Below are positions 6,107 to 26,819 of a DNA stretch of 38,221 bases, one piece after another (the stretch's first letter is position 1; every line of letters begins with the position of its first letter). Source of the DNA: Pseudanabaena biceps PCC 7429 (GTDB lineage: Bacteria; Cyanobacteriota; Cyanobacteriia; Pseudanabaenales; Pseudanabaenaceae); NCBI RefSeq assembly GCF_000332215.1, contig NZ_ALWB01000019.1:1-38221 (forward strand). The letters run 5' to 3'. The notes under the pieces are model-generated. The model had not been told where the DNA came from and ran no database searches. It was given only the letters and a program-made list of their open reading frames with translations. Both the position numbers and the translations under genes were made by a program.

Positions 6107-6155
6107 CTTGGACAAGAGAAAGGCGGCGCGAAGCGCCGCCTTTCTCTTATCCAAG
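6107..6155. repeat. Family A hairpin after hom
   Basis: Arms 6114-6129 and 6133-6148 are perfect complements around GAA, with CTTGGA/TCCAAG outside separated by small bulges. It begins 7 bases after the hom stop codon, so it would form at the 3' end of the transcript, though no U-tract follows. Confidence 0.85.
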
Positions 6156-6172
6156 TAATAGACCTTGCCACT

Positions 6173-6277
6173 TATATCAATTCCCAAAATGGCATTGCCA
6201 TTTTGGGAATCTCAAAACCTTACTGGGTTTGTTTTTTAATTCACTGAAGTGAGCCAACACTTCAGTGAATTGGTATA
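6173..6277. repeat. Family B composite element (two hairpins)
   Basis: The element runs from TATATCAA to TTGGTATA. Hairpin 1 has 13-bp arms (6181-6193, 6197-6209) ending AATGGC/GCCATT; hairpin 2 has 14-bp arms (6238-6251, 6258-6271). The joining segment contains CCTTACTGGGTTT, a sequence recurring in other family B copies. It lies between the convergent hom and PHP genes. Confidence 0.85.
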
Positions 6278-24178: not shown

Positions 24179-24264
24179 GTCTAACGGTGTAGTTGAGCCG
24201 CTACAGTCAAACTTTGGATTTTAAAGATCACTTTTAAGAGGTCGGCTCCAACACAGTGTTAGAC
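24179..24264 (-). mobile_element. attC-like recombination site
   Basis: Read on the minus strand: R'' GTCTAAC (24264-24258), 6-base spacer, L'' TTGGAGCCG (24251-24243), 42-base terminal segment, L' CGGCTCAA (24200-24193), 7-base spacer, R' GTTAGAC (24185-24179). R'' and R' fit RYYYAAC and GTTRRRY exactly and are fully complementary; L'' pairs with L' except for one extra base, and the spacers do not pair. This is the architecture of integron attC sites. It lies 28 bases downstream of the minus-strand protease gene, as expected at the 3' end of a gene cassette. Confidence 0.75.
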
Positions 24265-24291
24265 GGTCTTTACCGATAACCTTTTGCTGAG

Positions 24292-24660
24292 TCATAGCGC
24301 TTCAATTGTAACGCGCCCACCTTCGACTGCCTCAATTTGAAGTTTAAAACCATACAGCAAACCCATTCCCACTAACGGATCTGCATCAGAAGCCGCCACA
24401 TCAATAATTTGCTCTTGACCATCCCAGATTACAGAAGCTTTGTATATTTCAAAAACAACTTCGCTCCCGTCACCCAATGTTCCAATATCTCGATAGTGCC
24501 AAGGCAAGCCAAGATCTGTGATTATAGAAAGCGGTAAAGACAAAAAGCTAGTGAATCCTGTGTCAATGACAGCATCAAGTGCAATTTTGGGTGAGCCGAT
24601 ACGACCGACCGCAACTTTGATAATTGCTTCACAATTACTATTGACGACACCGAACATCAT
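24292..24660 (-). CDS. Retropepsin-like clan AA aspartic protease
   Basis: The 122-residue protein has the retropepsin-fold active-site motif D-T-G in LDAVIDTGFTSFLSLP (residues 28-43) with hydrophobic residues before it, a flap-like region (IGTLGDGSEVVFEIYKA) and the second conserved hydrophobic-Gly segment (DPLVGMGLLYGFKLQIEA). It should be an aspartic peptidase active as a homodimer; substrates are unknown. The start ATG overlaps the previous stop (ATGATG at 24660-24655), giving coupled translation with the 91-residue partner. Together they form the content of the putative integron cassette. Confidence 0.85.
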   Translation of the reverse strand: MMFGVVNSNCEAIIKVAVGRIGSPKIALDAVIDTGFTSFLSLPLSIITDLGLPWHYRDIGTLGDGSEVVFEIYKASVIWDGQEQIIDVAASDADPLVGMGLLYGFKLQIEAVEGGRVTIEAL

Positions 24661-24932
24661 ACTGGCTTTCTCAGGCTGCGGCTGCCAAAACGGAAGACTG
24701 CTCTATGTCCAATCCGTATCACCCAAGGTTGGGCATCGGGTTTTCGTTCATAAAGCTTATCAACCGCTAAAAGCGTTGAGTTAGCCACCTCAAAATCTCC
24801 AGTCTCAATATCAATGGCAACTATTTTGCCGTGATTACCTGCTTCGATTTGCGGACGTATTTGCGTTTGATAAATTAGATCGCCACGTTGGGCAAATTCT
24901 TCTTTGCTATAGCGGGGTTGACGGACTGCCAT
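24657..24932 (-). CDS. Small conserved partner of the aspartic protease
   Basis: The 91-residue protein (MAVRQPRYSKEEFAQRGDLI...GKIVAIDIETGDFEVANSTLLAVDKLYERKPDAQPWVIRIGHRAVFRFG) is a type I recall as common in cyanobacteria next to clan AA proteases. It looks soluble, with an N-terminal helix and a beta-rich C-terminal half. Its function is unknown. Possibilities are protease inhibitor, adaptor or substrate, or the antitoxin of a small addiction module, but the sequence shows none of these directly. It overlaps the protease gene by 4 bases and is upstream of it. Confidence 0.8.
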   Translation of the reverse strand: MAVRQPRYSKEEFAQRGDLIYQTQIRPQIEAGNHGKIVAIDIETGDFEVANSTLLAVDKLYERKPDAQPWVIRIGHRAVFRFGSRSLRKPV

Positions 24933-25024
24933 GATTGTGAATTTTCCTCGATCATTGCCTTGTCCAGCATTATAGCTGACCAGAAATCGCTATGAATATA
25001 TTGCTTTTGTTAAAGCAAAAATAA

Positions 25025-25050
25025 GGTGCGTTACATTTCATTAACGCACC
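25025..25050. repeat. GGTGCGTTA inverted repeat
   Basis: GGTGCGTTA (25025-25033) and TAACGCACC (25042-25050) flank CATTTCAT. Hairpins of this GGTGCGTTA...TAACGCACC type are common spacers in cyanobacterial genomes. It lies in the leader of the putative cassette. Confidence 0.75.
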
Positions 25051-25163
25051 CTACAAGATCGGCTGCTTTTTTAATGGACTTTCTTAAGTTGTAAAGAACA
25101 ATTTCAATTGGTTTCTCAATTTTTTGGTGTAAATTTGTTTGGCATAACGGCTTATCGAGTTTG

Positions 25164-25253
25164 GCATAACGTTCGCAATCACCGGACTCAGATGCTCTAT
25201 GCTAATCATTAAGTATACTGCAATGTTCCGGTGCATTGCGGTTGTTGTAAGGC
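25164..25253 (-). mobile_element. Degenerate attC-like site
   Basis: On the minus strand: R'' region GCCTTACAAC (25253-25244; GCCTAAC if three bases were inserted), spacer, L'' ATGCACCGG, about 40-base terminal segment, L' CCGGTGAT, 7-base spacer TGCGAAC, R' GTTATGC (25170-25164). L'' again carries one extra G at the same position as in the site at 24179-24264. R' departs from GTTRRRY at one base and R'' is poor. A second GTTATGCCAAA lies 22 bases further on. It follows the minus-strand gene 25351-25701. Confidence 0.5.
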
Positions 25254-25350
25254 TGGCAAAATAGTGCAGCACACCTCAAATTTTCAATCACAACTTCGGA
25301 ATTTGAATCTTTACGCTGGCAATGAGACGAGTACAATCACCTTGCCATTC

Positions 25351-25701
25351 TTACTCATTCTGATTCCGCCTTGTCTGTCGTCGTTTCTTTCGGGCGGCAC
25401 ATTTCTCCTGAGAAGTCAGCTTCTTGTAGGGATCAAAAGGTGTCCAGATTTCCCCAGTTTCATCGTCAAGATAGATTTTGATCAACGTCGGGAAAAACTC
25501 GGTACCGTGTTGCTCTATTTCAGTTAGATCTTCAAAGAAGCTGCCAATCCAAGTCGCACGGTAGTTGTATTTCTGTTCTGATGATTCTTTTGAAATAAAC
25601 TTGAGGTCGAAATCACCACCTAAACAAGTGTCGGCATAAGGCTTTTGATGGAGTTGTTCTAGGTGTTCAATAATGAGTTGTCGGACAATCCTTTTTTCCA
25701 T
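25351..25701 (-). CDS. Hypothetical protein, 116 residues
   Basis: I do not recognise this gene. The product is charged and soluble, with an N-terminal helix (KRIVRQLIIEHLEQLHQKP), a beta-type middle containing aromatic residues (YNYRATWIGSFFEDL, FFPTLIKIYLDDETGEIWTPFDPYKK) and a basic Arg/Lys-rich tail (RKKRRQTRRNQNE) that could bind nucleic acid. It begins at ATG 25701 with no obvious ribosome site. It ends about 100 bases before the degenerate attC-like site and may be the cargo of a second cassette. The lack of overlap with any better frame supports coding. Confidence 0.55.
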   Translation of the reverse strand: MEKRIVRQLIIEHLEQLHQKPYADTCLGGDFDLKFISKESSEQKYNYRATWIGSFFEDLTEIEQHGTEFFPTLIKIYLDDETGEIWTPFDPYKKLTSQEKCAARKKRRQTRRNQNE

Positions 25702-25930
25702 AAAATCAAGCCAGCTAAAGTTTTAGCCTATCAGCAATTTCAGAAGAAATAGACAGCTTAGCGACTATGCCATCTCCAATAAATCAAGCGGTACAACTAT
25801 GTATTAGACGGAAACTTTCTATCTAATCTGAATATAGGCGATTTAGCCCGAAAGTCAAATTTCCGACTAATCACCCTATACGTCACATTATATTGTCTCA
25901 AACGAATAATTTAGTGATGAGCTTGGCGCA

Positions 25931-26722
25931 TTAAGTCCAGTCATCCACTAATTCACCATCTTGACCTGAACTAGTATCTCGTCTCAATAAATCATCAATC
26001 TCTTGCCAATCGATCAGACTTACCTCAGCATCCTGCACTAATTCCCCCTTATGCAAACAAATGAGGCGATCGCACCATGTTTGGACTAAATCAAGCTGAT
26101 GGTTAATCATCACTACAGTTACAGGCTGGGGTAGTTGCGTTAGCTCAGTTAAAGTATTTAACAACAAATGCGATAAACCCCGATCTAAGGCTGAAGTCGG
26201 TTCATCTAGTAAAAGTACCTCTGGCTCCATAATTAAAGCTCTGGCGATCGCAATCCATTGTCTTTGACCGAGAGATAGCTCTAGCTCTGAACGATTGAGT
26301 AACTTGCGATCGATTTGCAGTTTATCAATCCATTTTTGCGATCGCGCATCAATTTCACTCTGGAGCGAATTTTGGAGCTTGAGCGGATAGATGAGCGCCT
26401 CATGCACATTCATTCCCAGCAAACTCGGCTCCTGTGGAACCAGCATCACCCGTCGTCGCAGGGTTTGAATGGGAAGTTCTTGAATATTTTTGCCGTTTAA
26501 CAAAATCATCCCTACCGATGGATCGATTAAACGATTGAGTAAGCGTAAAAATGTGGTTTTCCCCGATCCCGTTGCCCCAATTAATGCGGTTTTGTTACCC
26601 TGTGCGATCGCTACGGAAATACCTGTCAAAAGTGTGCGAAATTTAGTTTGGTAACTAATTTGTTGCATAGCGATCGCCGCATTACTGGCGATCGGCATGG
26701 ATGTCAATGAAACCTTTTGCAT
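25931..26722 (-). CDS. ABC transporter ATP-binding protein
   Basis: From ATG 26722 the protein has 263 residues: Walker A GATGSGKTT, Q-loop LVPQEPSLLG, a signature that reads LSLGQRQ instead of LSGGQ, Walker B VLLLDEPTSALD and switch His in MINHQ. It resembles the YbbL/FetA-type and related import/export ATPases, but no permease gene is adjacent, so substrate and direction are unknown. An upstream in-frame ATG at 26794 would add 24 residues (MRQGLMNWRVRPNFS...) unlike a normal ABC N-terminus. It is divergent from the FecR-domain gene. Confidence 0.85.
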   Translation of the reverse strand: MQKVSLTSMPIASNAAIAMQQISYQTKFRTLLTGISVAIAQGNKTALIGATGSGKTTFLRLLNRLIDPSVGMILLNGKNIQELPIQTLRRRVMLVPQEPSLLGMNVHEALIYPLKLQNSLQSEIDARSQKWIDKLQIDRKLLNRSELELSLGQRQWIAIARALIMEPEVLLLDEPTSALDRGLSHLLLNTLTELTQLPQPVTVVMINHQLDLVQTWCDRLICLHKGELVQDAEVSLIDWQEIDDLLRRDTSSGQDGELVDDWT

Positions 26723-26819
26723 AATGTAACTGTCTTTGCGATTAGCGATCGAGAAATTGGGACGCACCCTCCAATTCATTAAACCCTGTCTCAAGCGAAA
26801 TTAGAGAGAACAATCACAT

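Follow-up and report, generated by a model that had tools for sequence, protein, structure and literature searches.

An attC site in the chromosome of Pseudanabaena biceps PCC 7429 and the probable remains of a sedentary integron around it

The inverted repeat at 24179–24264 (minus strand) of the window, the 38,221-nt stretch of P. biceps DNA analysed here, is a genuine integron attC site (attC-B) and, at a probability of about 0.93, the last attC in a small, sedentary chromosomal integron located between two convergent genes for ABC transporters and now devoid of its integrase gene (intI). Integrons are bacterial gene-collecting systems, and attC is their docking site. The array is read on the minus strand from 25892 to 24179 and consists of an attI remnant, cassette A with a second site (attC-A), cassette B and attC-B, flanked on the left by an ABC transporter ATP-binding gene (25931–26794, minus strand) and on the right by the gene for a DevA-family ABC exporter ATPase (TIGR02982; 23389–24120, plus strand). 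A preliminary description of the sequence had recognised attC-B as an attC in a cyanobacterial chromosome, which the present analysis supports; it had named this one site, while the window also holds the second attC and attI, with intI deleted.

The attC site and its homologues in the genus

The minus strand of attC-B, from 24264 to 24179, reads GTCTAAC-ACTGTG-TTGGAGCCG-...-CGGCTCAA-CTACACC-GTTAGAC (86 bases), with R'' at 24264–24258, L'' at 24251–24243, L' at 24200–24193 and R' at 24185–24179, the crossover being expected at G24185^T24184. As first described, R'' and R' (GTCTAAC/GTTAGAC) are exact complements and match RYYYAAC/GTTRRRY, and L'' and L' pair apart from one extra base in L''. Spacers of 6 and 7 bases were also read correctly, and their description as unpaired holds in part, since the predicted fold of the DNA pairs GTG with CAC. 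Among the elements that define attC (PMC2727003) are L''/L' pairing, an extrahelical base on the R''-L'' arm and a central spacer left mostly unpaired; attC-B has all three. The site stands in cassette orientation and begins 27 bases past the stop codon of the gene at 24292–24660.

As single-stranded DNA, both strands of attC-B fold better than shuffled sequence, with z-scores of −2.7 for the minus strand and −4.0 for the plus strand, which is the attC bottom strand. Under a plain score of R''/R' motif plus arm pairing it reached 43–44.5, the sole match that strong in the window, with the best score per window at or below 35 in 40 first-order Markov-randomised windows. A covariance model built from 29 attC-like sites of the genus scored it at 108.2 bits (E 3.5e-30), attC-B being itself one of the 29 training sites. 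Both scorings place it far above random sequence, against the possibility, raised at the outset, of a score no better than shuffled. Rfam at gathering thresholds returned only one tRNA, with no attC family match. Genus-wide column shuffles found no strong covariation in the attC stem, an expected outcome where R' is part of the following cassette and there is little variation in the L boxes.

Homologues of attC-B were found by blastn in 19 of the 26 genus genomes, in up to 12 copies per genome and often in same-strand arrays, where they adjoin unrelated genes and also intI. Matches to the genus covariance model extend to 24 of the 26, with 56 in the single-contig genome G006. Thirteen of the 26 carry a complete IntI above the TIGR02249 curated cut-off (464 bits in G006), and that of several congeners has the IntI-specific region LPFAL..KYPNA.KEWIWQYVFPS. 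In several of them intI lies divergent beside an array, with an attI block between it and the first cassette, so that homologues of attC-B occur in cassette arrays next to an integrase gene. Across the phylum, intI above cut-off was found in 22 of 386 sampled cyanobacterial genomes (~6%); the initial view of such sites as uncommon in cyanobacteria is correct only in part. The main IntI clade of the genus falls inside a cyanobacterial clade (support 96/91). A second, separate IntI type is present in G019 and G020 (L045, L046, L062), the G019 protein being 53% identical to the main type. G006 also has a long array (L245/L246; G006:C1:3500000-3537500) of many near-identical cassettes of ~215 bp, too small to hold an ordinary gene, the distance from one attC to the next being 130 bp; they recur one at a time or a few in a row among larger cassettes.

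Integron cassettes recombining at G^TT would be expected to have, at their 3' end, an R'' that fits their own 5' end; a fit to the R' downstream, which is part of the following cassette, is not required. Of 28 informative unique site pairs in the genus, 22 have an R'' that fits its own cassette start better and four one that fits the downstream R' better (p=5e-4), which is the signature of recombination. Inside the window cassette A conforms, whereas cassette B, which is chimeric, does not.

attI, the scar of intI and the two cassettes

The attI remnant (25795–25892, minus strand) ends ...TCTAATACATAG^TT, with the crossover at G25797^T25796, and is conserved beside intI in many congeners. This 98-bp block has the same end in nearly all genomes (one copy in G007 has GCT), and past it (ATAG^TT) a different cassette start follows in every genome; a conserved block with differing continuations is what attI and its crossover should give. 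Two elements of a complete integron can be compared here: an attI with an insertion at G^TT is present, its outer part removed by deletion, and intI in cis is absent. Within the remnant lies a candidate cassette promoter (TTGACT-16-TATATT; 25831–25858, minus strand), proposed from its consensus match, which is kept in the attI of other genomes and reads into the array.

At 25888–25898 is the scar of the intI deletion, where the 3' flank of the ABC-transporter gene (GAGACAAT) is joined directly to inner attI (ATAATGTGACG) at ~25892. In G006 the order is the ABC-transporter tail (130 bp), intI, attI and array. The junction of G018 is identical to that of the window and is followed by another cassette, which is most simply read as one intI deletion common to both genomes. 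In G007 the ABC/attI junction differs, and the simplest reading is a separate loss of intI there. Between the two ABC genes of G003 and G023 there is no integron; it either never inserted there or was wholly lost. One G007 array (L096; G007:C504) contains two copies of the attI block (2560–2657 and 6142–6237), with a copy of the ABC-gene tail standing before the second, so the locus has been partly duplicated there. In G006 a gene-end fragment of DevA, the right flank of the window locus, lies inside the second array (L095:5979-6204), a sign of rearrangement between integrons.

The genome of P. biceps itself gave no TIGR02249 match over cut-off; it is 99.9% complete in 464 contigs, and a gap could in principle hide intI. 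A PF13495 match on contig C33, considered as IntI, was rejected as an XerC/XerD-like recombinase.

Cassette A (627 bp; 25170–25796, minus strand) runs from attI to attC-A and starts with TTGTACC, which fits its own R'' (TACAAC). Its gene (25351–25701, minus strand) encodes 116 aa without a family match over cut-off; Pfam and PADLOC searches gave nothing over cut-off for any of the cassette genes. attC-A (25164–25250, minus strand), ~0.9 kb from attC-B, is of another sequence type, with R'' TTACAAC, the stem CGCAAT-G-CACCGGA / TCCGGTG-ATTGCG carrying one extrahelical G, and R' GTTATGC. It is only the third-best match in the window to the genus attC model (14.7 bits, E 0.066), a weakness that follows from the difference in sequence type; its DNA fold has a z-score of −3.28, and a site 75% identical to it lies beside an intI remnant in G003. 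At 25148–25169 (minus strand), ..CTCGATAAGCC precedes a second GTTATGCC; comparison with sites of congeners suggests that this is probably the end of a third attC, since deleted.

Cassette B (963 bp; 24185–25147, minus strand) is a chimera of two neighbouring cassettes of G010: its first 88 bases correspond to the beginning of one of them, apart from an internal deletion, and everything after them to the body and attC of the other, the join lying at an interspersed repeat (25054–25021). This accounts for the R'' of attC-B not fitting the present cassette start. The first of its two genes (24657–24932, minus strand) encodes 91 aa, with no function assigned, and the second (24292–24660, minus strand) a 122-aa protein of the clan AA aspartic protease family, which scored 56.5 bits against TIGR03698, just under the cut-off of 57.35. 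A candidate promoter of its own (TTCATA-16-TATAAT; 24969–24996, minus strand) was again identified from consensus match. The gene pair recurs in many cassettes of the genus, where attC follows 6 to ~30 bases past the stop codon, and attC-less chromosomal copies are found in five congeners (L074, L075, L076, L078, L244), with ~87–89% DNA identity to the cassette B pair and the upstream region in common. We doubt that this locus family shows the birth of a cassette. If the attC-less chromosomal copies were ancestral, the step that added attC could be reconstructed, and a gene pair with and without attC is useful for the open question of cassette origin.

One further attC is present in the P. biceps genome, on contig C6 (L004:861-945; 83.5 bits with the genus model); it follows a PIN-domain gene pair, and a methyltransferase gene comes directly after it. 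The sequence ahead of that methyltransferase gene is a different one in G003 and G023, with the change at roughly this G^TT point, and the C6 site could represent an insertion at a secondary site, an attG-like case. At L004:1-63 is a ~60-bp repeat with many copies in both orientations in this genome and in G007.

Origin of the locus and competing readings

From the sites, the arrays and intI genes of congeners, the deletion junctions and the fit of R'' to cassette starts, read against known integron biology, we infer the following course. A tyrosine recombinase, IntI, with its gene opposite the array, would once have inserted circular cassettes at attI (25797^25796), the folded bottom strand of attC recombining at G^TT, and would have excised them through recombination between two attC sites. 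Later, intI and outer attI would have been lost in a deletion of ~1.1–1.2 kb. The two remaining cassettes are presumably now fixed unless an outside integrase arrives, and what transcription remains would come at most from the candidate promoters in attI and cassette B.

The position of attC-B between two convergent genes, and its better than random fold, are also what an ordinary transcription terminator would present, and the hairpin might be nothing else. However, a scan gave no terminator-like site at 24179–24264, and homologous sites stand behind many different genes, in arrays next to intI. Nor is the position conserved as a simple terminator at the same place in all relatives would be: two congeners have an empty locus, without the site, and in two more the locus is occupied by other cassettes. 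We regard the terminator as very improbable. Even less credence is given to a dispersed palindromic repeat, MITE- or REP-like, spreading without an integrase. The P. biceps genome has two similar copies of the site and many other interspersed repeats, but the sites stand in arrays of uniform orientation next to intI and attI, the junctions fall at G^TT, and R'' agrees with the first bases of its cassette, a match that a self-spreading repeat would not give.

Insertion of cassettes at genomic sites other than attI (attG) has been described (PMC12901181), and a lone cassette at such a site, with no resident integron, would agree with the single strong attC of the window and with the failure to find intI in the genome. 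This is a highly unlikely account of the locus, in that attI heads the array in the same window, next to the ABC tail found beside intI in G006. We prefer to read the locus as what is left of a resident integron whose intI was deleted.

Like the sedentary chromosomal integrons of Vibrio, Treponema and Xanthomonas, the locus has attI, an attC array in one orientation and, in relatives, a divergent TIGR02249 intI; it differs from them in that intI is missing and only two cassettes are left. Clusters of attC sites lacking an integron-integrase are known as CALIN (IntegronFinder, PMC9024848). The window resembles these in having attC sites without integrase, and has the two sites less than 4 kb apart that such a cluster requires (at least two attC, no integrase), attC-A being weak with the genus model; in contrast to a CALIN, it still has a recognisable attI, and its deletion scar records how the integrase was lost. 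Integrons and attC sites of cyanobacteria have been described before (PMC8352920, PMC8618304), and the phylum is listed in PMC8618304 and PMC2426708. Cyanobacteria-type attC sites have a covariance model of their own (Ghaly et al. 2021, PMC8352920), and attC-B, which may belong to this type, shares with it the canonical architecture and the place in a cyanobacterial chromosome. In Treponema the chromosomal integron has been lost in some branches of the genus (PMC3607928), a likeness to the loss within one genus seen here, although at the Pseudanabaena locus two separate deletion junctions can be read base by base.

The locus adds a new and readable case of integron decay to a type of system already known. 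It provides a base-level record of that decay in a cyanobacterial genus, in which an empty locus, a relative with flank-linked intI and two different intI deletions can be compared, and it shows that a resident integron can be recognised as the source of an isolated attC found in this genus.
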